Part shown: one piece after another, positions 12,653 to 55,981 of the stretch
How positions within the stretch are numbered: the stretch's first letter is position 1
How the letters are laid out: every line of letters begins with the position of its first letter
Notes under the pieces: model-generated
What the model saw: only the letters and a program-made list of their open reading frames with translations
Told to the model about the DNA's origin: nothing
Databases searched by the model: none
Translations under genes and position numbers: made by a program
Origin: Daphnia pulex
Lineage: Eukaryota; Arthropoda; Branchiopoda; Diplostraca; Daphniidae
Assembly: GCF_021134715.1 (NCBI RefSeq)
Contig: NC_060023.1
Location: forward strand, 10,478,001 to 10,542,000
Reading direction: 5' to 3'
DNA: 64,000 nucleotides

Positions 12653-12676
12653 AGGAGGGGTGAGAAAAAAAAGTCG

Positions 12677-12712
12677 TATAAAAGGCGAGAGAAAAGTCGA
12701 CAGGGATCAGTC
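12677..12712 (+). promoter_or_regulatory. TATA plus initiator promoter of the repeat-protein locus (left arm)
   Basis: TATAAAAGG at 12677-12685 is followed 32 bp later by ATCAGTCGAG, a good arthropod initiator (A at 12709). The arrangement is ideal for a strongly expressed gene, although the coding unit behind it is broken. Confidence 0.7.
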
Positions 12713-12796
12713 GAGCGAGTATCTCCGACACGGTAACATCTGCATTCCACTATCTGCCATCAGCTGCATTCTTCATCGTACTATCAGTTCTAAATC

Positions 12797-13240: not shown

Positions 13241-13314
13241 TCTGTTAGGTCGAGTTTTAATATGCCAATTACTAAATATACAAATTATTTAATGTCTATT
13301 AGTAATGAAGGAGA

Positions 13315-13862: not shown

Positions 13863-14833
13863 GAGTAAATATTTTTATTATTTTTTCATGGAAATTTGAA
13901 TCAACTTTCTAATTGCCAATATGCCAGTTATTAATGCAAATTGAAGTTCAAATTATTTGTTGCCTAGGAAACTATGGTGTCGTGCTGCTGTGAGTGTTGT
14001 AATCATGATGGCTGGATCGACCAATGGTGTGCCGATATCTCCTGGGTATGGTGGGCAATCAACAACAACATACGCAACAACCGCTTACTACACTGGGACC
14101 TGCAAGTGCCAAACCACCAAGGCTTCAGAGTATTACACCACAGTTTATGTTGGCACGAGCTACTACGCAGAAGCTCCGGAATAATTTTCTTCCCCGCTTC
14201 ACTACCTTCACCACGCCGCCTCCTTACTAAACAACAACAACAACGTCGTCAACACCTACTTACTAAACGAACGCCTCCAAGTGCTACGCCATAAAGGCTT
14301 CGAGTATTAAACTTCAACCTATGATGCTCCAGCTAACTATAATAATGCTCCCATGTTCTATTCTGTTCCCAGCTACTACAACGAGGATCAAACTTGTCAC
14401 ACAACTGAAGCGCCCAAGTACTGCACTACAACCTACGTTGCTCCAGCTTACACCACGAAGGGAGCGGAGTACAACACCACGAAGGGAGCGGAGTACAACA
14501 CCACGAAGGGAGCGGAGTACAACACCACGAAGGGAGCGGAGTACAACACCACGAAGGGAGCGGAGTACAACACCACGAAGGGAGCGGAGTACAACACCAC
14601 GAAGGGAGCGGAGTACAACACCACGAAGGGAGCGGAGTACAACACCACGAAGTATGCTACCATTTTACACCGAAGCTCCTGAGTATTACACCAAAGAGAT
14701 TGCATATTTCGCTTCAACCCGCGCTGCCCTCAGTTGCTATACCGAGGTTCCCAAGTACTACACCACCAAGGCACCCGAGTATCACACCACAAACGCTTCC
14801 GGATTTTACTACAAGGAGATTTCTAAATGCTAG
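13858..14833 (+). pseudogene. Secreted Tyr/Thr-repeat protein gene, unit 3, left arm (broken, with minisatellite)
   Basis: A third tandem copy. A TATGAGTAAAT remnant of exon 1 is at 13860. Exon 2 starts after CCTAG near 13968. It carries a degraded signal peptide, GVPISPGYGGQSTTTY and YYT repeats up to a stop at 14184. A further open stretch (14353-14682) encodes SYYNEDQTCHTTEAPKY and eight GAEYNTTK repeats. Its continuation (TEVPKYYTTKAPEYHTT up to TAG at 14833) is in another frame. The lesions are identical in both palindrome arms, so they predate the arm copying or were homogenised. Confidence 0.65.
14461..14652 (+). repeat. 24-bp coding minisatellite, 8 copies (left arm)
   Basis: Eight perfect tandem copies of GGAGCGGAGTACAACACCAC followed by GAAG. 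Each encodes the octapeptide GAEYNTTK in one frame and RRERSTTP in another. The unit length is a multiple of three, so all frames stay open through the array. N-T-T is an N-glycosylation sequon if the protein is secreted. Confidence 0.95.
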
Positions 14834-15390
14834 AGCCGATAGATCTATTTTATTTTTTTTAAATTGGTTGCTTGTCTTCATGATCATTGGTCACTGGGAA
14901 TTAACTGTTGATCTTAAATGAGAAAATAAAAATTCTAATAAGGGTAATTCTTTTGTAAGATTTTTGGTTGTAACTTAAAGCCTGTCTTCATTTTGACAGG
15001 TGTCTATTGGTGTTGGACTTCTTCAAGGCCAGTATCCTGCGCTGTGATATTTCTGTTTCATATTTTGGAGGTAATTACTGCCTTAGTCACTCTACGTACG
15101 GACATGTTCTTGTGTTTTGACGATGTTACAAGGGTAAGTTACGAAAGAAACTTGTAACTGTTGGTATTTTCAAATCTTATCAGTAAAAGGGAAGTGGCTG
15201 ATCTTGGTATAAATGAAAGACTTTGAAGTTGAGATAATTCCTAAACAATACTTGGTATAAATTACTTGTTGTAAATAAAAGACAATGAACAAAAAACTTA
15301 TAAAAAGAATTGTGTTATATTGTCCCACCTCCACCCACAATTCCACCACATTTTACAGTCACATATATACATACATACATACACTTAAGC

Positions 15391-15659
15391 TAACCCGTTG
15401 GCTGCCACGCCATACAACCCGTAGGTTGCACTCTACTACTCTACGCGCCACGTCTGAAGGATCCATGACCAAGTGGGACTTGCCATTGCTGACAAGTCCG
15501 TGCTGACAAGGGGGGGACTAAGGTGCATGGCCTGAAACAGGCTTGCCTTGCGGCAAATTTTGGGCTTGGCGACTCCTCGACCCCGCGGCTTGTAAACCAC
15601 GAGACCGAACAGCGCGGCCCGTGCATGGGAGAACAAAGGCGTGGCAGTCAACGGGATAA
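15391..15659. mobile_element. MITE-like element with terminal inverted repeats (left arm)
   Basis: A 269-bp GC-rich segment in AT-rich surroundings. Its ends are near-perfect inverted repeats: CCCGTTGGCTGCCACGCC at the left and the complement of CCCGTTGACTGCCACGCC at the right. No transposase is encoded. An open frame crosses it on the - strand but matches nothing I recognise. The target-site duplication is unclear (TAA or CTAA). A non-autonomous DNA transposon is the likeliest reading. Confidence 0.6.
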
Positions 15660-15985
15660 CTAACACAACACAAACGCAATAATACCAACAATACGATGAT
15701 CCACGTTGATGACGAGTCTCGGTGTCGGTCGCGATTTCGTTCTCACCAGGAGCAGGGGCAACATCCGACGGAGACAGGTGACAATTGTTAAAGATGAGAA
15801 AATCCATCTTCTCGACGTCTCCTCTGCATTACCTGAATAAAGACAAAAGAATTCTTATTAAGTGACCTGCCATTAAAAGTTACATAATACATATAGGCAC
15901 ATTGAACTGTTTTTTAGCTCAAAGATTTAAAAATGCAATTTTTTAAACTTAAAATCAAGCTTGCAATATTAAGAACTATACACAG

Positions 15986-16375
15986 AACAAAGCTCACTTG
16001 CTAGTCTAAAAAAAAAATTCCGGAAGTAGACCGGAAGTAACCACAGCGCCTCAACCATTGAGCTGTCGTCAAAATAAACCACATATTCGTGATCTCCATG
16101 AAATTTGGGGTCGATTAGATGTGATTTAAACGAAATCCAAAATTTGGCCAAAATCGAGAATTTTCCTGAACTATAGTTCAGGAAAATTTTCGAAACCGGA
16201 AGTACGAATACGTAAAAAAGATAACATGAACTTTACCACAAATTTTACGAGGATCACGAATATGTGGTTCTTTTGCTCCTCGAATGCATATTTACTTAAC
16301 TACTGACTGAAATGAGCAAACCGGAAGTAGAAAAAAAAACACATTTTTAAAAGAATCCAACAAGTGAGCTTTGTT
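15986..16375. mobile_element. Foldback (palindromic) element, left
   Basis: A 390-bp self-complementary segment. Its ends are AACAAAGCTCACTTG and CAAGTGAGCTTTGTT. Inside are mirrored CCACATATTCGTGATC motifs and a central TTTTCCTGAACTATAGTTC... hairpin near 16170. It looks like a foldback or MITE insertion. The switch from near-identical to diverged palindrome arms (about 16243) falls within it. Confidence 0.6.
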
Positions 16376-17760
16376 GGAGGAATAGATATCGTCAGTTTCC
16401 ACTAAAACATTTCCACACAACAGCTGCCGATAAATGTTTAAAGAGATTTCAAAGTAACTGAAACTGACTGTTTTGACAGCTGCAGATTTTTGAAAAGCCA
16501 TCTAGCGTTAGAAAAAAGAATCTAAGTATCTCCATCTAAGTAACACACTAACACTTCTTTTACGCGCAAGAAGGGCCTGATTTTGGAATTATCACACAGA
16601 CAGAGAGTTTAACGCAAATATATAACTAGCAGATAATCTACGAAAATAAGTCAATTGTCCGGTACCTGGCCATAATCCCGTGGTGAGTGACTGCAGGTGT
16701 GTAACAGCGGACGGAAGCGATCACTGAAGTGATCCAGAAACTCGCCAAGTCGCCAGTGAAGTAAAACCAATTGTGTTTAGAAGCAGTGAAACTAGATGAG
16801 CGTGCGTCACGAAGATAAGGATGGAGAAGAACGTTGATGGAGTCCCTCTTCCGTCATGGACAAAGGTCGGCATTCAGCATTCAGCACAAGAATCTGCGTG
16901 ACAGGACCACACGATTCCATAAAGAAACTGCGTGCCTCTGTAAAATAAAATGTTTTTCATTAATAAAAATTTAACAGTTAATAAAGCATATCAATCTTTA
17001 CCTTTTCTAAGAAGCACACTGCAATTTTCATGATGAAAAAACCGTAAAAATGGAATTCACTGCAACCAACAGCATTACTCCAAATGTTGAGATGAATTTC
17101 CCGATGCTAAAGAAAGTGTCATGAAGTAGCATGATGATAGGTGGTTCACTTGACACTCTTCATGTCACTGAAACTCTAAGTGGAAATGGGATAAAGGAAT
17201 TCTCTATGTTATTTACAAATTTACCTATGAGAAATAAAACTGTACCTATCTCTTAGTTGGGTTGCCTTCTAAACAGAAGTAAAAACAGCCATAACAACAA
17301 ACATGCTGTTGCAGGGTACGCCACCAACATTGCGAGATTCAGAAAAGATCCTATGGTTCATGTGCAAGGATACCTATGTTATAAGAAAATCTGAATTATA
17401 ATGGTCTGGTAGCAGTAATTGAAAAATACCTTATTTCGGTATTCCACTATATGTGTGCTTCAAACATGAGTTTTAAGCTTTTGACTGCATGAGGATCTAA
17501 TGGATGGAAATTGACTCAGCGCTAAGTCAACTTGCTGGAATGACTGACAGTATGCATCTGAATTTGGAGAAATAAGTTGGTACAGTATAAAAATAATGAA
17601 ACTATGTCAAGATAGACCTACATAAGTTACGAACTTCAATTTGGTATATGAAATCACAGGAATATAAGTATTAATTAGCTACAATTTGTTTCGCCTTTTT
17701 CGCCTCGTTTCACGATGTAACAAACTAACAACAACAAAGGCGACACTAGCGACATCTAGT
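16244..17760 (+). repeat. Left inner arm of palindrome (diverged)
   Basis: This pairs with 17787-19347 in inverted orientation. Substitutions and small indels are frequent, by eye roughly one per 8-10 bases in stretches such as 17041-17130 versus 18500-18600. It is on the same axis as the outer arms but much older-looking. No gene is recognised. A short frame with the peptide MEIDSALSQL occurs on this strand and is also present, with differences, on the - strand of the partner arm. Confidence 0.85.
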
Positions 17761-17786
17761 TACCGACTTAGGATTCAAAACCCATT
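17761..17786. other. Palindrome centre: 26-bp spacer
   Basis: These are the only unpaired bases between the two inner arms. The flanking stems CGACATCTAGT and ACTAGATGTCG are perfect complements, so the axis lies near 17773/17774. Confidence 0.85.
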
Positions 17787-19347
17787 ACTAGATGTCGCTA
17801 GTGTCGCCTTTGTTGTTGTTACATTGTGAAACGAGGCGAAAAAGGCGAAACAAATTGTAGCTAATTAATACTTATATATTCCTTTGATTTCATATACCAA
17901 ATTGAAGTTCGTATCTTATGTAGGTTTATCTTGAGTTTATCGTAGTTTCCTGATTTTATATTGTACCAACTTATTTCTCCGAATTCTAGATGCATACTGT
18001 CAGTCATTCCAACAAGTTGACTTAGCGCTGAGTCAATTTCCATCCATTAGATCCTCATGCAGTCAAAAGCCTAAAACTCATGTTTGAAGCACACATATAG
18101 TGGAATACAAATGTGCAGAGATAAGGTATTTCCCCATTACTGCTACGAGACCATTAAAATTCAGATTTTCATATAACAGGTATTCTTGCTCATAAACCAT
18201 AGGATCTTTTCTGAATCTCGCAATTTTGGTGGCATACCCTGCTACAGCATGTTTGTTATTATGACTGTTTCTACTTCTGGTTAGAAGACAACCCAGCTGA
18301 GGGATAGGTAGAGTATTATTTCTAAATTCGTATAAATTTGTAAATAATGTAGAGAATTTCCTTGTCCCATTGCTACCTATAGAGTTTCAGAGACATGAAG
18401 AGTGTGAAGTGACCTGCCATGTATGTACCATATCTGCTTGATGAAAGTCAATCATCTGGATGATAAAGGTAAGCAACAATACACACTATCGCCACGCTAC
18501 TGCAATAATTCATAACACTTTCTTTAGCATCAGGAAGTTTATCTCAACATGTGGAGTTATGCTGTTGGTTGCTGTGAATTCCATTTTTACGGTTTCTTCT
18601 TTCTTCCTGTTCTTATCATGAACATCTCAGTGTATTTCCTAGAAAAGGTAAAGATTGATATGCTTTATTCATTGTTATATTTTCATTAATGTAAAACATT
18701 TGTTTTTACAGAGCACGCAGTTTCTTAATGGAATCGTGCTGTCCTAGCACGAAGATTCTTGTGCAAATGCTGACCTTTGTCCATGACGGAAGAGGGACTT
18801 CCACCAACATCCTGATCTTCGCGACGCATGCTCATCTAGCTTCACTGCTTCTAAACACAATTTGTTGTACTTCACTGGCGAATTGGCGAGGACCACTTCG
18901 CCTGATCGCTTCCGTCCGCTGTTACACACCTGCAGACCACGGGATTATGCCCAGGTACCCAAAAATTGACTTATTTTCGTAGGTTATCTATCAATAGTCT
19001 AGTTGCGTTAGCTGTGTAATAGTTTCCAAAATCAGGTCATTTTACGCGCCAACGAAGTTTTACTTGGAAGTTTCTTTTTTCTAGCGCTAGATGGCTTTTT
19101 GATAATTTGTAGCTGTCAAAACAGTCAGTTTCAGTTACTTTCAACATCTCTTTAAACATTTATTGGCAGTTATTTTGTTGAAATATTTAGTAATAACTGA
19201 CGATTATTATTCCTGCAACAAAGCTCACTTGTTAAATTTTCGATATTTGTTTTTTTTTTCTACTTCCGGTTTCGCTCATTTCAGTCTGTAGTTTAGTAAA
19301 TATTCATTCGAGGTGCAAAAGAACCACATATTCGTGATCCACGTCGA
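17787..19347 (-). repeat. Right inner arm of palindrome (diverged)
   Basis: This is the partner of 16244-17760. The innermost 80 bp next to the spacer are more conserved, with the motif ACTAGATGTCGCTAGTG mirrored across the axis. No recognisable protein is encoded. Short open frames at 17861-18043 and 18728-18982 match nothing I know. Confidence 0.85.
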
Positions 19348-19607
19348 ATTTGTGGTAAAGTTCATGTTATCTTTTTTACGTATTCGTACTTCCGGTTTCG
19401 AAAATTTTCCTGAACTATATAGTTCAGGAAAATTCTCGATTTTGGCCAAATTTTGGATTTCGTTTAAATCACATCTAATCGACCCCAAATTTCATGGAGA
19501 TCACGAATATGTGGTTTATTTTGACGACAGCTCAATGGTTGAGGCGCTGTGGTTACTTCCGGTCTACTTCCGGAATTTTTTTTTTAGACTAGCAAGTGAG
19601 CTTTGTT
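19217..19607. mobile_element. Foldback (palindromic) element, right
   Basis: Mirror partner of 15986-16375. Its outer half is almost identical to the left copy, with one extra TA in the central hairpin. Its inner half differs at many positions. Confidence 0.6.
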
Positions 19608-19933
19608 CTGTGTATAGTTCTTAATATTGCAAGCTTGATTTTAAGTTTAAAAAATTGCATTTTTAAATCTTTGAGCTAAAAAACAGTTCAATGTGCCTAT
19701 ATGTATTATGTAACTTTTAATGGCAGGTCACTTAATAAGAATTCTTTTGTCTTTATTCAGGTAATGCAGAGGAGACGTCGAGAAGATGGATTTTCTCATC
19801 TTTAACAATTGTCACCTGTCTCCGTCGGATGTTGCCCCTGCTCCTGGTGAGAACGAAATCGCGACCGACACCGAGACTCGTCATCAACGTGGATCATCGT
19901 ATTGTTGGTATTATTGCGTTTGTGTTGTGTTAG

Positions 19934-20202
19934 TTATCCCGTTGACTGCCACGCCTTTGTTCTCCCATGCACGGGCCGCGCTGTTCGGTCTCGTGGTTTA
20001 CAAGCCGCGGGGTCGAGGAGTCGCCAAGCCCAAAATTTGCCGCAAGGCAAGCCTGTTTCAGGCCATGCACCTTAGTCCCCCCCTTGTCAGCACGGACTTG
20101 TCAGCAATGGCAAGTCCCACTTGGTCATGGATCCTTCAGACGTGGCGCGTAGAGTAGTAGAGTGCAACCTACGGGTTGTATGGCGTGGCAGCCAACGGGT
20201 TA
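19934..20202. mobile_element. MITE-like element with terminal inverted repeats (right arm)
   Basis: Mirror copy of 15391-15659 with the same terminal repeats (CCCGTTGACTGCCACGCC and its partner). Confidence 0.6.
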
Positions 20203-20831
20203 GCTTAAGTGTATGTATGTATGTATATATGTGACTGTAAAATGTGGTGGAATTGTGGGTGGAGGTGGGACAATATAACACAATTCTTTTTATAAGTTTT
20301 TTGTTCATTGTCTTTTATTTACAACAAGTAATTTATACCAAGTATTGTTTAGGAATTATCTCAACTTCAAAGTCTTTCATTTATACCAAGATCAGCCACT
20401 TCCCTTTTACTGATAAGATTTGAAAATACCAACAGTTACAAGTTTCTTTCGTAACTTACCCTTGTAACATCGTCAAAACACAAGAACATGTCCGTACGTA
20501 GAGTGACTAAGGCAGTAATTACCTCCAAAATATGAAACAGAAATATCACAGCGCAGGATACTGGCCTTGAAGAAGTCCAACACCAATAGACACCTGTCAA
20601 AATGAAGACAGGCTTTAAGTTACAACCAAAAATCTTACAAAAGAATTACCCTTATTAGAATTTTTATTTTCTCATTTAAGATCAACAGTTAATTCCCAGT
20701 GACCAATGATCATGAAGACAAGCAACCAATTTAAAAAAAATAAAATAGATCTATCGGCTCTAGCATTTAGAAATCTCCTTGTAGTAAAATCCGGAAGCGT
20801 TTGTGGTGTGATACTCGGGTGCCTTGGTGGT

Positions 20832-22868
20832 GTAGTACTTGGGAACCTCGGTATAGCAACTGAGGGCAGCGCGGGTTGAAGCGAAATATGCAATCTCTTT
20901 GGTGTAATACTCAGGAGCTTCGGTGTAAAATGGTAGCATACTTCGTGGTGTTGTACTCCGCTCCCTTCGTGGTGTTGTACTCCGCTCCCTTCGTGGTGTT
21001 GTACTCCGCTCCCTTCGTGGTGTTGTACTCCGCTCCCTTCGTGGTGTTGTACTCCGCTCCCTTCGTGGTGTTGTACTCCGCTCCCTTCGTGGTGTTGTAC
21101 TCCGCTCCCTTCGTGGTGTTGTACTCCGCTCCCTTCGTGGTGTTGTACTCCGCTCCCTTCGTGGTGTTGTACTCCGCTCCCTTCGTGGTGTTGTACTCCG
21201 CTCCCTTCGTGGTGTAAGCTGGAGCAACGTAGGTTGTAGTGCAGTACTTGGGCGCTTCAGTTGTGTGACAAGTTTGATCCTCGTTGTAGTAGCTGGGAAC
21301 AGAATAGAACATGGGAGCATTATTATAGTTAGCTGGAGCATCATAGGTTGAAGTTTAATACTCGAAGCCTTTATGGCGTAGCACTTGGAGGCGTTCGTTT
21401 AGTAAGTAGGTGTTGACGACGTTGTTGTTGTTGTTTAGTAAGGAGGCGGCGTGGTGAAGGTAGTGAAGCGGGGAAGAAAATTATTCCGGAGCTTCTGCGT
21501 AGTAGCTCGTGCCAACATAAACTGTGGTGTAATACTCTGAAGCCTTGGTGGTTTGGCACTTGCAGGTCCCAGTGTAGTAAGCGGTTGTTGCGTATGTTGT
21601 TGTTGATTGCCCACCATACCCAGGAGATATCGGCACACCATTGGTCGATCCAGCCATCATGATTACAACACTCACAGCAGCACGACACCATAGTTTCCTA
21701 GGCAACAAATAATTTGAACTTCAATTTGCATTAATAACTGGCATATTGGCAATTAGAAAGTTGATTCAAATTTCCATGAAAAAATAATAAAAATATTTAC
21801 TCATAATAACTTCTGTGTAGTATTCAACCGTTTTTGTACTCCGGTGCCTTGGTGATGTAGTACTTGGGAGCCTCGACGTAGTTCTCGACCCTTTGGTAGT
21901 GTAGCTCGGGGCAACATGAGCTGTGGTGTAATACTCTGGATCCATGGTGGTGTAGCACTTGTAAACCTCAGTGTAGTAAGCTGGAGCAGCGGAAGTTGAT
22001 GCTAATTAGTTAGACGGCACGGCAGTGTAGTGCTTTAGTACCCGCCATACCCAGGAGACATCGGTACACCATGGCTGAACCACCCATCAACGATACAACG
22101 CCCAACAGCAGCACGACGCCATAGTTTACTAGACGATTAATAAATTTTAACATTTATTTTCAATTATGGTACTAGTATATTAACAAATAGAAAAAAAAGT
22201 AGAGTTGATTCACAACTCTATGGAAAAATTTTTACCTTTATTTAAAACTTTTAATGCGACGAAGAATGAAGTTGATGACAAATAGTGCACGGCAGTTCCT
22301 GTTGCCGTAACGGAGATGCTCAATCGGCTGCTGAAATCTTTCACCTTTTCTCTCCTTCATTACTAATAGACATTAAATAATTTGTATATTTAGTAATTGG
22401 CATATTAAAACTCGACCTAACAGAATATTTACCCATGATATGTAGTGGTATAGTACTCAGGTGCCTTGGTCGTGTAGTGTTGGGGAGCCTCGGTGTAGTA
22501 CTCTACCCTTTAGTAATGTAGCTCGGAGAAGAATAATACTGTGGGGATTCGGTGTAGTAGCTTGGGGCAGCATGGTGGTGAAGTACTTGGGGGGCATCGG
22601 TGTAGCAACTGGTTGTGTCGTAAGTTGTGTACTAAGGCGGCAGTGTAGTGCTTTGGTATCCACCATACCCAGGATACATCGGTACGCCAGTGGCTGAACC
22701 AGCCATCAACGACACAACACCCAACAACAGCACGCCAGCATAGTTTACTAGACAATTGATAAATTCAAACATTACCATTCAACAATTACTGGCTAGTAGC
22801 AAATAGAAAAAAAATAGAAATTGAATATTGATACACAACTAAATACGACAAACAGAAAACTTACCCAT
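20832..22868 (-). pseudogene. Three secreted Tyr/Thr-repeat protein units, right arm (broken)
   Basis: This is the mirror copy of the three left-arm units: unit 1 at about 22425-22868, unit 2 at 21803-22350 and unit 3 at 20832-21807. Signal peptide, stops and frameshifts are the same as in the left arm. The only difference found is the longer GAEYNTTK array (11 repeats). Extent is inferred from the mirror relation. Confidence 0.65.
20941..21204 (-). repeat. 24-bp coding minisatellite, 11 copies (right arm)
   Basis: The same unit as in the left arm, with eleven copies. The three extra units (72 bp) account for the whole shift in the mirror coordinates of the two arms. Confidence 0.95.
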
Positions 22869-22952
22869 GATTTAGAACTGATAGTACGATGAAGAATGCA
22901 GCTGATGGCAGATAGTGGAATGCAGATGTTACCGTGTCGGAGATACTCGCTC

Positions 22953-22988
22953 GACTGATCCCTGTCGACTTTTCTCTCGCCTTTTATA
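22953..22988 (-). promoter_or_regulatory. TATA plus initiator promoter of the repeat-protein locus (right arm)
   Basis: Exact mirror of the left-arm promoter: TATAAAAGG reads on the - strand at 22988-22980, with the initiator A at 22956. Confidence 0.7.
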
Positions 22989-23387
22989 CGACTTTTTTTT
23001 CTCACCCCTCCTCTTAAGCCTTGCGGTTATTTTACCTTCTTGATAAAATGATACAAAATGTCCCGTTCTAACCCAACCTCTACACCACTGCATGACACTT
23101 TTTACTTAATGATCTCCATGACCTTCGATTGAAATGCAAACTGGCCTTTCCTTCTTTAGGTAGACGTTGCTGGGGATGGGTCTACAAAAACCAATATCAA
23201 AATGAACACCAAATAGCTTACCCTTGCGGCTATTGTACCTGCTTTGATAACGATGAAACACGTGTCATTCTCACCCAACCTCTACACCACCGCATGCCAG
23301 TTTTACGTAATTTTCTCGTGACCTTCAAGCGAGAAGGACATCCTGTCTGGACAAACTGGCAGACCTTTCTGCAGGTTCACTTGCATG

Positions 23388-31920: not shown

Positions 31921-33177
31921 TTACTGGGAGATAAACTCATTAGGGGAAGATTGGAAAAGTCTTTGAAGATGGTTAAGAAATGGAGATGCTTTAAAGGGAC
32001 TGTCATTAGCGTAACAGGGAGACGTTTCATAAGGAAGAAGACACTTTGACGATTTTTCGTCGAATATCAGTCCGTTGGAGCAAGAATAAAACAAAATAGA
32101 CTTTGTTGAACCATTATTGTAGCACTGAAAGAAATTTCTGCAATCAAACGGATATCGATGAAAATGACCCGATGTACAATCAATTTCAGATGAATCAAAA
32201 AATCCATCTGCAATGGGTTTCGTGAATTGCTGGTCACACGACGATTCTTCCAGAAGTAGACAACGTTGTGCACCTTCATCAAATACTAAACCTGGTGCGC
32301 AAGAGAAAATGTTCACAGATCGCTGGTGACATTGATAAAAGCGATTGCAATCGGAATTCGGGAGTCGATACAACTTGTTAGAAATGCAGTCCATCCCTAA
32401 TGTCGGTATTAGTACATCAGACGTTTCCACTACTACACCAGCAGTTTGGAATTCTTTGTCCTCCACATTTGGAGAGCTTGTTACCGTTTCAAAAACTGAA
32501 GGTGCAATAACGGAATCAGGTGAAAATACAAAAGTAGATGGAACTCCTGTCGACGAGGGGTCAACAGAAAATTCGGCAACAGCATTGGTCGATGTTGACG
32601 GGGGAACGAGTGTCAACATTTCCGTTTCAGAACCAGGAGATGAAGAAAGTTGCGGTGAAGAATCAGTTTGAGCGTTTAAAGGTGTCAGCGTTGTAGTAGG
32701 ATTGGAGTTGTTGATAACTGGTGATGGCGATTTACGCGACAAGACGCATACCGAGAGATTATCGTCGAATTCAAGCGCAGGTGGACACGAGAATTTGAAT
32801 ATGACATATTTCTTCCCATTACCCTTATAATCAACGCACCTAAAACAAATTAACAGAGAAATAATTTCTTTAATAATTTCTGAAACAATAACACATTTTT
32901 CACAATTAATCTTATAAAGATGGGCTTACCTGTAAAATTGAGAAGAGTCGGTTTCGTTTCGATTGTAGCCTGTCCCCTTACAAATACCCGCTTTGTCGTA
33001 GAATCTCGCTGATTGGAATGCGGTCTTGTGATCTGTTAAATAAATAAAATTACTCTAATTTGAAAAAAGCAATGTAAAGCTGTCGATTAACTCACCACCA
33101 TTAAGCGCTTGTACGATGCCGAGCAATACCAAGTAAATCAACATGTTCTCGAATCTATTTTTGAGCGAGAATGACAT
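31921..33177 (-). CDS. Secreted protein with three CBM14 chitin-binding domains (paralogue A)
   Basis: Exons in transcript order: 33096-33177, 32930-33032, 31921-32839; 368 codons (367 residues). A signal peptide (about 1-26, core MLIYLVLLGIVQA) leads to an N-terminal CBM14 (peritrophin-A) domain split by the second intron (ICKGTGYNRNETD...QFYR|CVDY). A Ser/Thr/Pro-rich linker of about 100 residues follows. Two more CBM14 domains are at about 212-264 (DCNRFYQC, FSCAPGLVFDE) and 282-340 (DCRNFFQC, LIFDEKSSKC), each with six cysteines. It is probably a peritrophic-matrix or cuticle component. It shares the exon plan and phases with the next two genes upstream on the same strand, so the three are tandem paralogues. 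Confidence 0.88.
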
Positions 33178-35690: not shown

Positions 35691-37739
35691 TTACTTTGGG
35701 GTATAGGTGTTCATCCGAATTTTCATTTTATTTTGGCTAGCCCCTCGCCCACTTTGATGGGGTAATTTTGGGATAATTAAATCAGATAATTCTCTGTGTT
35801 TTGGCAAATTAGTTTTTTGCTGCTCAAAGATGTCCCTCGATTTGGAAAGAATTGAAGCAGTATCAATTTCCTCTTGCAATTGGAAAACAAACGAGGGTGA
35901 TTTGAACAAGTTGTTGTTGTCTCCGCAAGGCGAAGTTTCCTGAGGTAAGAGGCAACGTAAAGACGAATCATCAAAAACCAGGCCGGCAGCACAAGCGAAA
36001 ACGTTGATTATTTCATGTCCTTCGTCATCTTTGAAGCAGGTGTAAAAATTGTTACAGTTGAGTGGGTAGCGGTAAAGGTTGCCGTTGCAATCGAGACGGA
36101 GGATTCCACCAGGTCCATCAAAAGAATTAGTCGTATCGTTAATAGAAGACGTATCTTTACAAACTGCCTCAGCTGGAGTCCGACACTGGGATGAAACATC
36201 GTCAAAGTAGAGGCCAGGTAGGCAGGAAAAAACATAAATAATGCGTTGGACACCATCAGAGACGCATTGGTAAAATCGTGAGCAATCGAGAGGGAATTGG
36301 AGTGGCTTATCTGATGTGCAGTCGAAACTAAAAGGGGGTTTGGGTGGTGTCTCAGGTTTTGGTGTGCGTGGCGTTGTCGTCGATGTTGTTGTACTTGGTG
36401 TTGTTGTCGATGGTGGAGGAGTTGGAGTGGGAGGCGTCGGCGGGGGAACTGTTGGAGTGGGAGGCGTCGGCGGGGGAGGTGTCGGCGGAGGAGGTGTTGG
36501 AGTGGGAGGCGTCGGCGGGGGATCTGTTGGAGTGGGAGGCGTCGGTGGTGTTGGAGTGGGAGGCGTCGGCGGAGGAGGTGTTGGAGTGGGAGGCGTCGGC
36601 GGAGGATCTGTTGGAGTGGGAGGCGTCGGTGGTGTTGGAGTGGGAGGCGTCGGCGGGGGAACTGTTGGAGTGGGAGGCGTCGGCGGGGGAGGTGTCGGCG
36701 GAGGAGGTGTTGGAGTGGGAGGCGTCGGCGGGGGAGGTGTCGGCGGAGGAGGTGTTGGAGTGGGAGGCGTCGGCGGGGGAACTGTTGGAGTGGGAGGCGT
36801 CGGCGGGGGAGGTGTCGGCGGAGGAGGTGTTGGAGTGGGAGGCGTCGGCGGGGGAGGTGTTGGAGTGGGAGGCGTCGGCGGGGGAGGTGTTGGAGTGGGA
36901 GGCGTCGGCGGGGGATCTGTTGGAGTGGGAGGCGTCGGTGGTGTTGGAGCGGGAGGCGTCGGCGGAGGAGGTGTTGGAGTGGGAGGCGTCGGCGGAGGAT
37001 CTGTTGGAGTGGGAGGCGTCGGTGGTGTTGGAGTGGGAGGCGTCGGCGGGGGAACTGTTGGAGTGGGAGGCGTCGGCGGGGGAGGTGTCGGCGGAGGAGG
37101 TGTTGGAGTGGGAGGTGTCGGTGGAGGATCTGTTGGAGTGGGAGGCGTCGGCGGAGGATCTGTTGGAGTGGGAGGCGTCGGTGGTGTTGGAGTGGGAGGC
37201 GTCGGCGGGGGAGCTATTGGAGTGGGAAGCGTCGGTGTACATGGTGGTACTGCCATCCTGGGCCCAGTGCAAAGTGAGCGGCTCGGATCAAAAACGGTCA
37301 TGGGACCGCACATAAAGCGGAAAACAGTATGTTTCCCATTCCGGTTAAAATCGACACACCTTAAATAAAATTCAATACATTTTAATTTCAAACTTATGGA
37401 TTAATCTTTGATAAAAATCTTTCCCCAATAAAACATATTTATCCTCACCTATAAAATTGGGTGCAATCAGTTTCATTTCGAAAGAATCCGGCATGAGGAC
37501 AGAGTCCCCCAGTATCTGGGAATCCTCTCATGTCGATCATAGGTTTCATGGATCTTGCTATTAACGAATTGAAATCAAATCATGTTCAGTTTAAAGGTAA
37601 TGGAAAGCAAAATGTGTAACAAAATTTGCATACTGTGGCGATGTAAAATCTTGTCGCTTTCCTGACCGGAAGAATCGGAAGAGTAATACATAAAGAAGAG
37701 TGTCGATAAAGCAGCAACACAGCCAATTAAGACCCGCAT
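35691..37739 (-). CDS. Secreted CBM14 protein with proline-threonine repeat linker (paralogue B)
   Basis: Exons in transcript order: 37634-37739, 37449-37557, 35691-37359; 628 codons (627 residues). A signal peptide starts MRVLIGCVAALSTLFF. The first CBM14 domain spans the intron (GFFRNETDCTQFYR|CVDF). The linker (about 105-400) is built from PTPP/PPTP/TDPP repeats. CBM14 domains 2 and 3 are at about 416-470 (DCSRFYQC) and 493-550 (NCNNFYTCF), followed by a basic tail. The Pro/Thr region should be extended and possibly O-glycosylated. The splice phases match paralogues A and C exactly. A 5' UTR intron seems likely because TTTCAG directly precedes the start context. Confidence 0.88.
36405..37240 (-). 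repeat. Coding minisatellite for the Pro/Thr linker
   Basis: About 0.8 kb of imperfect tandem repeats based on GGAGTGGGAGGCGTCGGCGG (+ strand view) with GGA/GGT/GAT variants, arranged in higher-order blocks. Units are multiples of three, so the array is open in several frames on both strands. Only the Pro/Thr frame joins the flanking CBM14 domains. Confidence 0.9.
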
Positions 37740-40094: not shown

Positions 40095-43000
40095 TTAATT
40101 GGTCTTGCTTTGGCCGAAAAGGCTTTTGGAAAGCGGACTGATGCGGACGCCGTAAACTCCCGAGTCGAAGAGTCTTGGTCGAAAGTTACCCGTGACCGTC
40201 GTTGCTGCTGTCGATTTAGACTCTTTGCCTTTCCGGCTGTCGGTGTTGATCCGGCGCTGTCCAACCTGTCGATCAGCTTCTCCTTCATAACCCATTTTCC
40301 GTTTGGTTGATCCTCTTCCGGACTGGTGGGGTTGACTAAAAGATATTTCGGAGATGGTGGAACTGCTCGACTTTTGCTGGACGATAGTTCGCGATGTAGA
40401 AATGAGCGAAACGATATCGATTTTCTGCTTCAGCTGGAAGACGAGATTAGGCGACCGGAAGATGTTGTCGTTGACAGCGCACGAGGAAGTTTCGCTGGCC
40501 AACAGACAGGTCCTAGAATTTTCATCAAAGACCAATCCAGCGGCGCACGAGAAGACGAAAATGGTTTCTTGGCCTTGCTCGTTCTTGAAACATTGATAAA
40601 AGTTATTGCAATTGAGAGGGTAGCGGTAAAGATCACCCGAGCAGTTGATTTGGAAGAATCCTCCAACTCCCTGGGAAGAGCTAGCCGTATCGTTGATTGA
40701 ACTTTGATCGTCACAAATTCCTTCTGTCGGTGTCAAGCACTGGGAAGTGGCTTCGTCAAAGACGAGTCCAGGTGCGCAGGGGAAGATGTACACAGTCCGA
40801 TCTGTGTCCTCTCCAAAACATTGGTAGAATCGAGAGCAGTCAAGTGGGAATTGATGGAGTTGATTGAGAGAGCAATCGATGGTGAAGGGTCCGGCGGAAG
40901 GAGGTTGAGGGGTTGGGACAGGAGGTCGGAATGTAGTATCTGAAGGCACAGCTGGTCTGGAAACGGACCCTACGAGGTCCAGTATTCCCACGCTACCTCC
41001 TGAGCTACTGGTGGTCGTCGACGTAAGAATCCTGATGGCAAAAGAGGCTCCACCGATACTGGTGATGACACGACTGCTGGAGGATGCTAGTTGAATAATT
41101 CCTGCCGTGCTGCCGGATGCAACAGTGACTGTGAAACTAGCCTGGGCGGTACGAGTGAATTCTGTTGAAATCATTGAGCCATCCAAACCGATTTTGACAA
41201 CTCCGTAAATGGTTCCTGAGCCGAAAGACATGGTCGTCGTTGATGTTGTGAAGAATCCATCACCGATTTGAGTCACCAGAGCTCCTTGAGCGTTCAACAG
41301 ACCAAAGATCTGTCCAGGTAATACCATGAAAGTTGATGTTGAGCCTCCTTCGTTGACTGTAACTACTCCTTGGCCTTTGGCAGGTATGATACCAAACGAG
41401 CTACCTGAAGCGACTGACAAATCGGCGACTGATGCGAATTTTTCCTTGACTCCGATCTGGATAATGGAGGAAAGTGTCTGTAGCTGAGAAGAAACTTGGG
41501 CGGAACTGATGACGATGGATTTGGACAGTTGGAATTGCTCGCTGAAAAACATCACGCCGAAATTGCCGAGTACGGCAGGTACGTCAGGGCTAGTGGAATC
41601 GCTGATCAAAAGGTTTTGGGTGGTGAAAGATGTCGATCCGATTCCAGTCACGACATTTTCAGCCGATAAAATAATCAAGCCGTAAGTACTGCCTACTGGA
41701 ACGGTAATGGTAGTCTTGACTTTGGTGACAACCGGATTTTGCACGCTCATCGTTCCATCCGGACGGATAGTCACGATACCAACTGTTGCTCCGGATTGGA
41801 AGGTGATTTTAGTTTGGCTGGTTGTAAAGTAACCACTGACGATTCCACTGATGTCTCCGCCAGAAGATGGAGCAACCATACTGAAAATGCCTCCAGACGG
41901 AATGGAGAAAGTTGTTTGCGTCGACGATGTTTCCGTTTCTTCGGTTACTATAATATCGCCGGAAGCGATAATAGCGCTAGTAGACGAGGCAGGGATTGAA
42001 ATGGTCTGTCCAGCTGCTTCTTTGCGATTCAAGAAAGTAGCATCTCCAACTTGAAGGATTCCAAACAGCGACTCGACTTGGGAAGTTTGAAATGAGTTGA
42101 AATTCAACACACCAAAGATAACGGAAGCCGTCGATCCGGTGAGCGTTTGCGTGCTGAAGCTTCCGGTTCCAATGTTCGATAGTAGTCCCGTGTTGGTCGT
42201 TTGGACTATACCAACGGTGCTACGCAAACTGGTTATGATGGTGAATGTAGTTGTGAATTCGAAGACGGAAATTCTTACAATCTTCCCATCAATTCCAACT
42301 TTGTAGACTGCAACGCTGCTACCAGCAGGGAACGTCATGGAAGTTGTTGCCGTTGTAAACATGGGCTGTGCCAGATTTGTGATTGTGCCAACTCCATTAC
42401 TAGGAGTGAGAACGCCAAAGAAGGTTCCTGGGGTGATGGAGAATTCTTGGCTATTTTCCCCAACGACCGTGACAGTTCCTTTTCCGCCTTCGGGAATGAT
42501 AGCCAAAAGGTTGTTGCTTGGTACAGTCAAATCCTGGGCCGGCTGGGATGGCTCAGTTGGTGCTCCCACGGTGATGATTCCCGAAACGAATTGCTGATCG
42601 CCAGTGATGGTTGTCGAAGTCGTTGTGATGATTGTTTGGGAGCTGGTCGATGTTGTCGTGGTGGAAGGCTGGAGGACTCCAAAAGAGCTGGTGGTTGTAC
42701 CGGTCGTGAAATAAGTCGTCATAAAAATCCATCCGCCAATGGTGACAACCTTTTGGTTGACAAATTGAACCGATCCGACAAAGCTGTTGGTTGGTACAGT
42801 TAAAGAGCAGGTAGATGTAGTGGTAAGAATGGTTTGAGTGCTGATGATCTGACCAGTAGCTCCGATCTTAACAATGGAGAATTTCGTTCCAGGTGGGAAA
42901 GATGTAGTGGTCGAGCTCGTCGTGAAAAGTCCATTGGCAACGTTGTTCCATACTCCGCCATTTTCGGTGGTGCTAATCACGAGAACTGAGCCAGGTGGAA

Positions 43001-46000
43001 TCGAGTGGGTCGTTTCGCTAGAGTCTCCTTGTTTGATGACAATCTGAGAGCCACTTCCTTGGCTTACTACTCCCCAGGTGCTGCCAGAAGGTACAGCGAT
43101 GGAAGGAGTAACCTGTTGGGTGTTTTGAATAATTTCCTTTTCGCCAATCGTCAAGAAACCTTTGATATCTTCAACAGCAACTTCAGGCTGCTCAGTCGAG
43201 ATTGTACTAGCTGGAGTTGTTTCTGTTGATGGGCTTGGAGGGTTGGTTACTACCCCGGGAGCGGATGTTACTGGTGCGGATGTAATTACAGTGCCTGTAA
43301 CTGGCGCCAACGTCGTAATGATGGAAGTAGTTGTCTCTGGGGCGATGGGAGGTGATGCAGGAACTGTTGTGAAGCTTCCAATATCAAGAACACCTGCGCG
43401 TGCGGTCAAATCTGTTGCTGTAAGGGGACTGACGTTGGTCATGATTTTAATTACAAAAGGAGCTCCTCCGATGCTTGTGATAATGTTTCGGTTGTCGGTT
43501 GTTTGCTCGAGGGTTCCAACTGTGCTTCCTGTGGTGACTGTTATAGTAATACCGCTCTGGGCAATTCTAGAGAATTCCGTTAAAATAATTTGTCCCTCCA
43601 AACCAATTTTGATGATTCCATATTGACTTCCTGTTCCGAAATTGATTGTCGTCGTGGTGGTAGTGAAAAATCGATCGCCAATGTTTGTCACCGTAGCATC
43701 TTGAACGTTAAAAACGACAAACAGCTGACCGGGCAGGACAGAGAAAGTAGAAGTAGCTCCTCCCTCAATCACCGTCACGACGCCTTGTCCTGTACTGGGT
43801 ATAATTGAAAATGAGCTGCCAGTTGGGACCGACAATGAAGTAATGGAGTCAAAACGATCCTTGACACCGATTTGGACGATTGCAGAAATAGTTTCGAGTT
43901 TCTGCAAAACTGGGGCTGAATTGATGACGGTCGATTGAGACAGCGTGAATTGTTCGCTAAAATATACGACGCCAAAATTGCCCAATGTGGCGGGAATTTC
44001 AGGACCGGTGGAATCGCCCAGCAGCAAGTATTGAGTGGAGAACAGAGCAGAGCCGATTCCGGTTACTACGCCGTTACTGGAAAGAGTCAAGACGCCAAAA
44101 ACGCTGCCAACTGGGACCGTGATGGTAGTTTTGACGGTGGAATCGATCGGGTTCTGAAGACTCATCGTGCCATCGGCTCTAATAATCACGATGCCGAATC
44201 TGGTGCCCGATGGGAAAATAATCTGAGTGGAGGTGGTGGTGAAATAACCGTTGGAAATTCCGCTAATTTCTCCGCCACTCTTCAACGTGACGAATCCTAA
44301 AATTCCGCCCGACGGAATGGAAACAGCCGTCTGCTTGATGGAAGTGCCATCTTCCTCCGTGATTTTGACTTCGCCTGAAACAAGAATGGCGATTGTTGTG
44401 CCAGGGAGAATTTGAATAGTTTGGACGGTTGTGGTCGACTGTTGTGGGTTCAAGAAGGTGGAATCTCCGATCTGAATAATGCCCGACAAGGATTCAACTT
44501 GGGTAGTCGTTGAGATGATTGGGTTGACATTGACAACGCCGAAATAAATGGGTTTCGCTGATCCGGCGAGAAGTTGAGTACTGAAAGTTCCTGTTCCAAT
44601 ATTACTGATGACTCCAGTTTGGGTAGTCTGGACAATACCGACGATACTCTGCGATGTAGTGAACAAGGTGAAAGAAGTATTAATTTGGACGAATGAGACT
44701 CGGATCAATTGGCCGTCGATTCCGACTTTCAGAATTGATACAGTGCTGCCAGCTGGGAAAGTAATCGTTGTCATGTTGGAAGTAAACATGGATTGGACGA
44801 CATTGGTAACAATACCAACTCCGTTGCTCGGAGCGAGGACGGCAAGGAAGGATCCGGGTGTAACGGGGAAATCAGTATCTAAAGTTGATCCCTCTTCAAT
44901 CAAGGTGACGATTCCTTGGCCACCCTGAGGAACAATGGCGAGCAAATCTCCGCCAGGAATAGAAAGATCCTTCGTAGATGGAGAAGGATCACTTTGAGCT
45001 CCTACGGTAATGATTCCCGAGATGAATTGTTGGTCTCCCGTGATGGTTGTCGACGTAGTTGTGATTGTTGTTTGAGAGCTGGTTGATGTTGTCGTGGTGG
45101 AAGGCTGGAGGACTCCGAAAGAGCTGATGGTTGTACCGGTCGTGAAATAGGTCGTGGAAAATGTCCATCCTCCAATGGTGACAACTTTTTGGTTGACAAA
45201 TTGAATCGATCCGACAAAGCTGTTGGTTGGTACTGTTAAAGTGCTGGTAGATGTAGTGGTAAGAATGGTTTGGGTGCTGATGATCTGACCAGTAGCCCCA
45301 ATCTTGACAATAGAAAATGTCGTTCCAGGTGGGAAGGATGTAGTGGTCGAATTGGTCGTGAAAATACCGTTGGCAACGTTGTTCCATACTCCTCCAGTTC
45401 GAGTGGTGTTAATAATGAGAATCGAGCCAGGTGGAATAACCGAGAACGTCGTCTCACCAGTGCCGTCTTCCTTCAAAATAATTCTGGAGCCCTCGCCCTG
45501 GCTGGTCACTGCCCATGTCACGCCAGGATTGACAGTAATCGTAGAAATCACCTGTTGGACATTCTGGATGATTTCTTTTTCGCCGATAGAGATGAAGCCT
45601 TTGATATCGTCTCCAATTGTTATGGCTGGTGCAGGAGTTGTTGTTGTACCAGAGGTTGTTACTGTAACCGGTGGAAGAGTTACAGTTGGTGGTGTAGGTG
45701 GAGTAGTCGGAGTAACCGGGGTTTCCGATACTGCTTCAGTTGTCGTTGTTGTAGGAGCGTCTGTACTGACTGGAACAGGTGCAACAGTTGAAATTACTTC
45801 AGGTAAAATCTCCGATCCAGTGTTAATTTCGAGCGTTGAAGTTGATGGAGTGGTTGTACTTGGTGTTGGAGGCTCCGTTGTTACAACTGGTGCAGCAATC
45901 GTGGTTGTATCAACCTCAATTACTGGTGTTGTGGTAGGTGCCGGCGTCGGGGTAAGTGGCCCCACGGGCACTGAGACGGTTGCCGGAGTAGTAGAAGGCT

Positions 46001-47164
46001 CCGTTACAGTAGTAGTGGCTGGTGTCGTGGTTGTTGTAATAATTTCTGGTGTTGTAGCTGGTACTGGAATGGTGACAGGAGGTACAGTTTGCTCTGGAAC
46101 AGGTGCCACAGTTGGCACTGTGACGGGCTCCAGAGTGCTGGATGGTGTCGGCTGTGTGGCAGGAATTGTAACTGGTGGAGGAGTTGTGGAAGACGCTAGA
46201 ATAGTAACAGTGGGATCTGTTATGATGACAGGAGCTGAAGTTGCGGTTGATGTTTCCGTCACTATTACGGGAGGTGCTGCAGTAGCAGGCACTGTGACAG
46301 GTGCCGCAGTCGATGCTGGTGTAGGTGCAGGAGTCGCCGCTGGTGTCGCTGGAACAGTTACGGGAGGCTGTGTTATTACAGGTGCTTCAGTTGAAGATAC
46401 AGGAACAGGATCAGGCGAGGAAAGTTCAGTAACGGCTGTAGTTGTTGGAGTAGTAGGTGTTGGAGTAGTTGTTGTTGGAGTAGTTGTTGTTGGAGTAGTT
46501 GTTGTTGGAGTAGTTGTTGTTGGAGTAGTAGGTGAAGGAGTAGGTGAAGGAGTAGGTGAAGGAGTAGGTGAAGGAGGTGAAGGAGGTGAAGGTGGTGAAG
46601 GTGGTGAAGGTGGTGAAGGCGGTGAAGGACCCGGAGCCATTGGTTTCATGCTAACAAAGAAAGCATCCAGCTGATCCTTAGGACACGGCGGCACTGACAG
46701 CTCAGGGCCAGTACACAGAGACCGGCTCTCATCGAAAACAGCCATCGGTCCGCACATAAAGCGGAAAATGGTATGTTTCCCGTTGTTGTTAAAGTCGACG
46801 CACCTGGAATATCATATAACAACAAACGAAATGACAGTTAAAGGGGGTTTTTATTGAAAAAAAAAAGGAAAAAATTATATTACCTGAAGAACTGAGTGCA
46901 ATCGGTTTCGTTACGTTGGAAACCCGCACCTTTGCATACAAACGGCTCCGTATCCGGAAAGCCTCTCATGTCGATCATCATAGCCCGAGCTAAATTAGCA
47001 TTTCAATGATATAGCCGTGTGTGTTTATAGTTAGTTTCACGTGGCTTTGGCTAAGTATATAATATAATACAATTCAACTTACTATGGCGGCTCAAAATTC
47101 TCTCTGCTGCATGGGCGGCCCCAAAGGAAAGGGAAAGCGCGGCCAAGAAGACGAGACATCCCAT
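40095..47164 (-). CDS. Giant secreted CBM14 protein with eight internal repeat modules (paralogue C)
   Basis: Exons in transcript order: 47083-47164, 46884-46989 and one 6709-bp exon 40095-46803. They join to 2299 codons (2298 residues) without a break. A signal peptide (MGCLVFLAALSLSFGAAHA) and an N-terminal CBM14 domain split at the same place as in paralogues A and B (QFFR|CVDF) come first. A Ser/Pro/Thr-rich mucin segment (about 115-460) follows. Residues about 462-2008 hold eight modules of 170-200 residues in two sets of four, separated by a second Thr/Pro linker (about 1205-1274). Two CBM14 domains (about 2040-2095 and 2115-2170; DCSRFYQCF, NCNNFYQCF) and a basic tail end the protein. 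It is probably a chitin-anchored extracellular fibre or gel component. The module function is unknown. Confidence 0.9.
40965..45608 (-). repeat. Eight-module repeat region (A-B-C-D twice) in the giant protein
   Basis: Module starts (approximate nt, residue): A1 45608 (462), B1 45025 (656), C1 44495 (833), D1 43893 (1034), A2 43169 (1275), B2 42592 (1467), C2 42075 (1640), D2 41480 (1838). Each opens with a GIIQIG-like motif. Each then carries a PPGS-type turn, an FTT-TTT-FPxGT block, a GIVKIGxDGQI block, a TITVPxGS block and an IGxxxFxT end. A1 resembles A2, B1 resembles B2 and so on more closely than different modules resemble each other, so a four-module set was duplicated. The look is Thr/Ser/Gly-rich beta strands. 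Confidence 0.85.
46437..46640 (-). repeat. Simple coding repeats in the mucin linker of the giant protein
   Basis: GTAGTTGTTGTTGGA-type repeats (encoding TPTTT) followed by GGAGTAGGTGAA and GGAGGTGAA repeats (encoding SPTP and SPP). Unit lengths keep the frame, so the linker length can vary without breaking the protein. Confidence 0.8.
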
Positions 47165-47244
47165 CAGCCGTGACTTTAACCAAAAAAAATAAAAACTGGG
47201 ATTAGATTTTTCTTTTTTTCTCCGTTGGCATCTCATTAACCATC

Positions 47245-47279: not shown

Positions 47280-49911
47280 GCCCACATTACACGGGAACTA
47301 TTTTAATAGCAAATTTATAGACACCGTCGTTAACCTCGTAAGCCTTAGGGGGAAAACATCTTTCTATATTCTGATCGAATCAAATAAATTCGAATGAATC
47401 GATATCCCATCAAATTTTCCTTTCCTTATTTTGTTTTTTAAATAAAAGATGAACGCGTTTAGACGTTGAACAGAGGTTCGTGACTAAGTTGTATGTTACC
47501 ATCTTGATATGGAATTAAAATTTTTCTTTCTAGATTTTCTTGTTGGCCGAGTGACACGGTTGTGAGATTGACAAACTGTTTCAATGTCACCGGGGGGAAA
47601 GCGCCTCCCGATACGGAGAAGCGTTAAGGATGACTCGATAGCATAAATCTGTTGTTTCGTAACATAGACACAGCAATAGAGTGAAAAAAATAAAATGAAA
47701 TAAAAACCAAACTTTGTTTTTTCTCCCCTCTGTGTTGTTTTTGTTCTTATAAGGCGCTATTGAAAACCAAAGTGGCTTGACTACTAGGGATCGTCTCTTT
47801 GGCAACGAGTTGGCAACGATAAAAACAAAGTTGTCTCTTTTTTTTTCATGGACATCTCGAGAACTTAATAGCCCAATGTAAAACGACTTATGTGATGCCT
47901 CTTGATGTCGAAATTTGTTTGTTGCCAAAAAACATTTTTCTTTTCTTTTCTTACCAGGAGACACGATTATAAAAAAAAAATACGGTAAGTGAACTTTGAT
48001 CCTTGTTACTCGGAGCGCTGACCGAACGACGCCTTGAAACCGAAAGGAATTTTCCCAAACGGACAAACAAAAAAATCGGCCGTCAATTATACACAGCGTG
48101 AATAAAACAAAAATTTTCAAGGACGACGCCTTGGTGGCATTTTTTAGAAATAAATTAATTCCCCAAACAAGTCAGTGATCAAAAGAAATAAGGAAATCAT
48201 GAATCATGTGCATTGGGATGAACAATGAAGATAACAACACGCAGGCCTATATTATAGCGATGTGAAGCAGCCCATGGGGAATGATGATGGATGTCGTGAC
48301 TAGGCTCCTTCGGCCTATAGCACACACGGGCATATAAGGGAGAGAAAGTACTGTAGGCTATGTTTATACATCAACCCTCCTCCCTTCTCAAGTATGCCTC
48401 GACTCATTCTTAGTTAATTCCAACTCGTCTGCTGGTACATAAGAGTAAACCCGGTATTTTGATTTTTCAAATAAAAGTATACCCTGAAGCCTGTATAGGA
48501 GACGGCGGAGGAACCCGACGTCGATAAATCTTGTCCGGACGCCCAACGGCGCATAGAAAAAAAGAAGAAAGAGAAAGGAAGGTCAGCAGCAGCCATAGAG
48601 TGTGCCGCGTGATTTCACTTTCGTCCCAATGCCCGACTCTTCTTCTTCCCGTCTGGCCGCTAAAGTAGGCGGGGCGCGAAAAACCTCAACTAGCTGCTTC
48701 TTGATTGTTCGCTAACTACATAGCTTTCCCAATTGCTTAAACGCCCATCTGTCGTTTTTACACACATGTGCTGTATTCACGCAGCTTTGCCGATTATAAT
48801 GTAAGAGAGAAATCAAATGTCATAATTGCTTCACTTACCGGCAAGGGCCTGGCTATCATTTTGATGATGAGTTGTTCTTGGTATATTGTGTCGCAATGTG
48901 CAGGTATGTGGAATTCCGCAGATCTTTATATTACCTTTAATTCAAATGATACAAAAACTTAATAACGAAAAAGTTTCTAAACTCAATTTTAAAAAGATTG
49001 GAATTAATTTGAAATGAAATCCATTTTACTTGTTTTGCTTAGTGCCGGGTGAGTGAGCAAAACCGTAGGAGAAGATGTGCTTGCGGAGGAACCGAATTCG
49101 ACAATACTCTCAAGTCTTTACTCAGTTTAGTTCTGTTGGATATCCCTCGCCTTTATATAGGCAAGCTCTGAGCTGGTGAGTAGTAGGAGGAGGTGTGCAC
49201 TCTATGCGGCAAAAGGATGAGCCACTACCACCACCAATAACACGCCCGGGTAAGGTTGGGATGGCTGCTGGTCGCGCGGGTCAGCGTTTCGGATTTCTCC
49301 GGTTGGCTCTCTGCTGATGCGTTGAGCCAGCGGCGATAGAGAGAACTCGAAGAAGATCTCCAGAAACGTTCCCTCTCTTTTCTCTTCGGCATTATGTGTG
49401 TCTGGACCATCAGGAGATCCAAGGCCAGATGGGTAGACGAGCTCCTAGAGAAAAGAGACAAAAAGACACATAACAACCCGGGGAGGTGAATATAAATCCG
49501 GCGTACCTGTGCGCATTGTAATGGAGCGTGAATTCGTTCTCACTTTTTCTTTATTCTCTATGTGAATAATCTCATCTTCTCCTGGGTTCCAAGTAGCTGG
49601 TCGAACATGTCGTTGTTTCGCCATACCCAACCATCCGGTGAATTGATATTCTGAACGAGAGAACGTCGTTTTGACCTTTGGAAAGTCGATTCGGTGTAGC
49701 TGTGCAAATTTACTGTAAAAAAAGATAAATGAAACAAAATTAAATCATTTTTGACTTTCGAAAAAGGTAATGAAGTGAAATTAATATTTAAGTCTTTTGC
49801 CTTAAACAAGATAATAAACTAGATATTAGTCAGTTAACTAATCAGTTTCATCTAGTTTTTAAATGAAATAACCTTTCCTAGTCCTCAATGTACTGGAGAA
49901 AAATGTAGTTA
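47280..49911. other. Gene-poor stretch with a possible promoter
   Basis: Open frames up to 177 codons (47587-48120, - strand) have no recognisable features. A CTATATAAAGGC box on the - strand near 49160-49151 and a TATA-like box on the other strand at the same place look like a promoter region. No exon with recognisable protein similarity follows on either side within a few hundred bases. Confidence 0.4.
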
Positions 49912-55579: not shown

Positions 55580-55981
55580 CAGGCTCATCGTTGTCGAAAA
55601 GCACTTGGAGGAGGAATGCGGCAGGCGGGTATTTTGGCCGCAGCCGGAATTTTGTCACTTACAAAGGGACCTACCAGGGTAGCTCAAGATCATATTTTCA
55701 CCAAACAATTGGCTGTTACTGCGCAAGAGGTTTGAAAAAGCGTTGTGGAAGTTGATCGAGATATCGTAGAGACGAATATGGTTATGCTAAAAGTCGAGCC
55801 CATATCAGGTGCTACCCCTAATTCAATTGTGAAAAGATTTGCTGAATCTACTGAAAAGGAAGTTCACGGGATCGGTCAAGATATTCGTTGGCTTGCTTAC
55901 CCGATGACTGAAACGAACATCATAATTGTTGTTCACTGCAGTAACACACCTGAAGACATCAATCTCGCTCAAGACAAATAA
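55580..55981 (+). pseudogene. Threonine aldolase C-terminal fragment, one internal stop
   Basis: The reading frame contains CRKALGGGMRQAGILAAAG and TKGPTRVAQDHIFTKQLA, then VETNMVML, and ends at TAA (55979-55981). This is the C-terminal half of a PLP-dependent L-threonine aldolase. A TGA at 55733-55735 interrupts the frame. The N-terminal half, with the PLP lysine, is absent. EXOSC7 sequence is joined directly upstream, so this is a captured or duplicated gene fragment. Confidence 0.75.

Follow-up and report, generated by a model that had tools for sequence, protein, structure and literature searches.

Proteins of the arthropod chitin matrix are usually described by their CBM14 chitin-binding domains, and the regions in between are passed over as linker. 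A gene in a 64,000-nucleotide stretch of Daphnia pulex DNA (NCBI RefSeq assembly GCF_021134715.1, contig NC_060023.1, here C7:10478001-10542000) raises the question of what such a middle region can be. The whole stretch is called the window, and positions given without a contig are counted from its first letter. In this gene a domain without a name in the libraries searched is repeated in an ordered array across the middle, in the genome of a standard model of ecology and toxicology.

Eight related modules between chitin-binding ends

A preliminary description of the window had reported eight modules in two A-B-C-D sets at 40965-45608, located between a mucin linker and C-terminal CBM14 domains. 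This layout was confirmed; as cut here, the modules extend from 45623 to 40965 and are 173-204 residues long, with adjacent modules overlapping by 4 residues. The domain order is CBM14, a 351-residue linker, A1-B1-C1-D1, a 55-residue linker, A2-B2-C2-D2, two CBM14 domains and a tail. The modules were defined by sequence comparison, profiles and a tree, and the structure of D2 was modelled in addition.

45624..46676, minus strand: mucin-like linker, 351 residues, 30.2% Thr and 25.4% Pro
45021..45623, minus strand: module A1
44487..45032, minus strand: module B1
43887..44498, minus strand: module C1
43362..43898, minus strand: module D1
43197..43361, minus strand: Thr/Pro/Ser-rich linker between the two module sets, 55 residues
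42585..43196, minus strand: module A2
42066..42596, minus strand: module B2
41472..42077, minus strand: module C2
40965..41483, minus strand: module D2

All eight modules are homologous. Profiles built with one module type left out recovered the held-out modules with 79.4-97.7 bits, versus 9.3 bits for the best shuffle (2000 shuffles per type, 8000 in total). Four linker pieces served as controls; the two that overlap A1 scored, and the two pure ones reached at most -2 bits or were unlisted. Identity is 23-35% across module types and considerably higher within a type (A1/A2 78%, B1/B2 57%, C1/C2 59%, D1/D2 54%). The tree groups A1 with A2, B1 with B2, C1 with C2 and D1 with D2 (support 98-100/97-99). 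Since the copies pair by type, the four-module block was duplicated as one unit.

The recurring motif blocks noted previously were found in part: with loosened patterns, GIIQIG-like, FTT..T...F..G, IVKIG.DG-like and IG...F motifs are present in 8/8 modules each, whereas a TITVP.GS-like motif occurs in six and a PPGS-like motif in five of the eight. The modules are Thr-rich, as had been stated, and consist of 17% Thr, 13% Ser, 11% Gly, 11% Ile and 9% Val with few charges; a single cysteine is found among the 1522 module residues.

Gene model and chitin-binding domains

The open reading frame at 40095-46811 on the minus strand comprises 2238 residues with zero internal stops. The spliced product has 2308 residues and is encoded by four exons, which are joined in one reading frame via GT..AG introns at splice sites picked by eye from the sequence. 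The second exon is called signal-peptide-like from the hydrophobicity of its translation.

48839..48859, minus strand: exon 1, start codon and 7 codons, with a GT donor and in frame with exon 2
47083..47173, minus strand: exon 2, hydrophobic and signal-peptide-like, translation MGCLVFLAALSLSFGAAHA
46884..46989, minus strand: exon 3, beginning of the N-terminal CBM14, flanked on both sides by GT..AG introns in one frame
40095..46803, minus strand: exon 4, remainder of the CBM14, linker, eight modules, two CBM14, tail and stop

46698..46936, minus strand: N-terminal CBM14, split by the intron 46804-46883; Pfam PF01607 with 24.7 bits; cysteine gaps 11, 5, 15, 12, 9
40713..40865, minus strand: second CBM14, 37.8 bits; cysteine gaps 11, 5, 13, 12, 7
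40479..40634, minus strand: third CBM14, 35.6 bits; cysteine gaps 10, 5, 14, 12, 8

All three CBM14 domains exceed the cut-off of 22.1 bits, and PF01607 matches the whole exon in two stretches with 51 bits. Each domain contains six cysteines. A spacing of CX11-30CX5-6CX9-24CX12-17CX6-12C is given for CBM14 in PMC7379184; two of the three domains agree with it fully, and in the third CBM14 the first gap is 10 and thus one short. The protein is of a kind already known, a CBM14 matrix protein, and the location of the modules within it bears out their proposed tie to chitin as far as the sequence can indicate. The N-terminal CBM14 was absent from the preliminary description.

Searches for relatives of the module

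No credible match to the module was found in Pfam (searched with the exon, the eight modules and their 16 halves), in NCBIfam or PHROGs (eight modules), or among PDB sequences. The best weak Pfam match on the exon, MF_alpha_N, has an E-value of 0.0056 and 17 bits versus a cut-off of 22 and was rejected as the module family, as were other scattered weak family matches to modules and the PDB sequence matches (best E-values 0.35, 1.1 and 0.93). Thus, the module appears to be undescribed in these four libraries, which agrees with the earlier view that it could not be assigned to a known family; a profile match placing it in a described family did not arise. Literature searches yielded no title on such a domain in Daphnia, which is not proof of absence from print.

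Within the genome (133,188,837 bases on 13 contigs), queries with the single modules D2, C2, B2 and A2 at E-values up to 10 recovered 8, 7, 8 and 8 of the eight modules, respectively, and found module copies in the exon 40095-46811 only; such queries score the best candidates only, so that a divergent copy could escape. Two further places in the genome with E-values of 0.41 and 6.8 were read as chance. An eight-module profile run on all window frames of at least 40 residues located modules in the same exon only. The best of its weak hits on the opposite strand lies at 44578-44925 (plus strand) in a 116-residue frame (14.7 bits, E-value 0.0024) and is perhaps compositional; the other window hit is at 55693-55863 (E-value 8.1). 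No confirmed relative was detected in collections of bacterial, archaeal, viral, phage and plasmid sequences, none of which holds arthropods; the bacterial, archaeal and viral contigs were scanned with short peptide patterns, which reach mainly close relatives, and the phages and plasmids by tblastn with one sequence.

Predicted structure of the module

The preliminary description had proposed that the structure of one module be predicted and had expected a beta-rich domain. The best of five models of D2 consists almost entirely of beta structure; it contains 15 strands and no more than a single short helical segment, and has a predicted local distance difference test score (pLDDT) of 72.1 and a predicted template modelling score (pTM) of 0.72, so that the expectation holds at the level of prediction. 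Foldseek returned no PDB match for this model at an E-value of 0.001 or below, and the template modelling (TM) score was at most 0.26 among the 50 rows listed. Comparison with viral folds likewise gave no confident match.

The module might represent a highly diverged version of a beta fold already known, either a double-stranded beta-helix of the cupin or cNMP-binding type or the all-beta domain found in NAD and diacylglycerol kinases. We regard this as unlikely. The cNMP_binding family reaches 11.4 bits (E-value 0.33) versus a Pfam cut-off of 27.5, and the score of the full-module profile against cNMP was attained by 11 of 100 shuffles. Against one NADK exon the scores were attained by 73/100 and 25/100 shuffles. 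The Foldseek result speaks against a known fold as well, and there is no cNMP or cupin row among the 50 fold matches listed, an absence that does not exclude a shared fold.

Nested duplication and selection

The modules are themselves built from repeats, which had been missed previously. With half boundaries set by eye, the two halves of the module align with each other over 63 columns (hhalign probability 95%, E-value 3.1e-8); the score of 42.0 was reached by none of 200 column shuffles, the best of which scored 18.5. Each half of about 63 residues consists of two beta repeats of about 30 residues with the form tItvp.GS..gIv....G.vt. All six comparisons between these quarters scored above 60/60 shuffles, with probabilities of 13-92%. 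Homology is thus present at each level of the array. Growth probably proceeded by nested duplication, from the repeat of about 30 residues to the half of about 63 residues, the module, the set of four and finally the two sets.

The two sets share 63% protein identity across 739 aligned codons. Fourfold degenerate sites with the same residue are identical at a fraction of 0.36 (189 sites) versus 0.27 by chance, except in a tract at set-1 residues 457-600, where the fraction is 0.77 (83 sites) versus 0.26 by chance. Since identity outside the tract is near chance, the set duplication is old. The tract, which had also escaped the preliminary description, pairs set-1 residues of about 457-600 with 1270-1410 and is listed at 43960-45450, its A1 side at about 45012-45443 in plus-strand coordinates. 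Part of A was probably homogenised after the set duplication, by gene conversion.

The ratio of nonsynonymous to synonymous divergence (dN/dS) between the copies, calculated with the Nei-Gojobori method (NG86), came to 0.25 (A), 0.16 (B) and 0.13 (C). The D copies gave no dS with NG86, and YN00 returned a dN of 0.35 and a dS of 1.6. Roughly measured as they are, these values point to purifying selection on the module copies. A broken or chimaeric gene was rejected in view of the open frame of 2238 residues and of copy-to-copy dN/dS values below 0.3 where computable.

Possible functions of the array

On balance, the gene likely encodes a secreted protein, about 2300 residues in length, whose role within a chitin matrix is that of a long tether or a cross-linker. 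The module array probably serves as a structural spacer within a lining or shell based on chitin. In such a protein the CBM14 domains at both ends would grip chitin fibrils, as their family suggests, and the middle would combine a flexible Thr/Pro-rich mucin-like stretch with an array of eight beta-domains, which may be rod-like. The Thr/Ser-rich surface could be O-glycosylated. The signal-peptide-like start of the four-exon model is counted in favour of this explanation, and the layout suggests a tether. Other results weigh against this explanation or the evidence beneath it: the remaining four models from the D2 run have pLDDT values of 47.2, 46.2, 44.0 and 39.1; the first model, of A2 type, was poor (pLDDT 51); the comparison of the second with the third quarter is weak, with a score of 15.55 versus 15.42 for the best shuffle; and the dS values of B and C are near saturation and that of D is missing with NG86, which makes the ratios rough.

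The protein resembles peritrophins and other peritrophic-matrix proteins, a class defined by production in the midgut and presence in that matrix, in its six-cysteine CBM14 (ChtBD2) domains, its Thr/Pro-rich mucin-like linker and its signal-peptide-like start. Unlike them, it carries about 1500 residues of a repeated, unassigned beta module between the chitin-binding ends. CBM14 is likewise shared with the cuticular proteins analogous to peritrophins, CPAP1 and CPAP3. According to PMC3504105, CPAP1 proteins have one CBM14 and vary in length outside it, and CPAP3 proteins have three tandem N-terminal CBM14 domains; the protein described here differs from both, with one CBM14 at the N-terminus and two at the C-terminus, and does not fit CPAP3.

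The modules could instead be lectin-like or immune-like recognition domains, which the CBM14 ends would display on the chitin lining of the gut, where they would bind microbes or food particles. The layout recalls the variable-region chitin-binding proteins (VCBPs) of amphioxus, in which, according to PMC2632668, beta-domains (immunoglobulin domains of the V type) are joined to a chitin-binding domain and expression is mainly in the gut. The four module types are also well diverged (23-35% identity), as differing binding specificities might be, and some of the low-scoring fold rows are carbohydrate-binding proteins (galectins, rotavirus VP8*, galectin-8). Unlike the tandem V-type domains of VCBPs, the modules contain almost no cysteine, and Pfam lists no immunoglobulin family for any of the eight modules or 16 halves. 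A recognition role seems quite improbable to us.

The extreme composition, with its abundance of Thr, Ser, Gly, Ile and Val and its few charges, and the short beta repeats all through the array would also suit self-assembly. The product would be a silk-like or amyloid-like fibre, gel or adhesive, for which chitin binding would serve only as the anchor. The module types are distinct and ordered, their length of about 190 residues is conserved, and D2 was modelled as compact with fair confidence (pTM 0.72), all of which argues against self-assembly and makes it very improbable.

Sister genes and other loci

Two tandem sister genes on the same strand, likewise missing from the preliminary description, have CBM14 ends in common with the module gene and different linkers.

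35691..37400, minus strand: sister gene exon, CBM14 end, linker made of a Pro/Thr repeat, two CBM14, no module
31921..32925, minus strand: second sister gene exon, CBM14 end, shorter Ser/Thr-rich linker, two CBM14, no module

Since the sisters share the ends and differ in the linker, the middle is the variable part of these genes. We tentatively suggest that the module represents an undescribed family with an unsolved fold, possibly restricted to water fleas and related animals, which arose by nested growth within the linker of a single gene of the tandem trio, as a new domain in a variable middle. Should the family prove limited to cladocerans, it would allow the origin of a structural domain through nested duplication to be traced; should it prove widespread, it would be a family that Pfam lacks. 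In both cases, others could use a profile built from the modules for annotation.

The Pro/Thr linker of the first sister gene is encoded by a minisatellite at 36415-37235 with units of 30, 75 and 84 bp. Further CBM14 frames are located at C7:10562511 and C7:10565192, about 45 kb from the trio; their linkers are Thr-rich, and they show no module hit with an E-value of 1 or below. On another contig, CBM14 matches occur six times in a tandem gene array (C8:8415289-8451925), in frames of 920-923 residues; the gaps between them measure about 6.5 kb in four cases and about 10.4 kb in the fifth. An open frame of 417 residues at C2:10505299 looks like a tail-fibre protein of a virus or phage. The window also contains a palindrome of about 11 kb (12278-23387), in which 12278-14652 and 21013-23387 form inverted arms of 100% identity; a further arm pair (14450-16175 and 19418-21143) is also 100% identical, and the inner parts are 93% and 87% alike. 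Each arm carries a 24-bp tandem array, of 8.5 and 11.5 copies.
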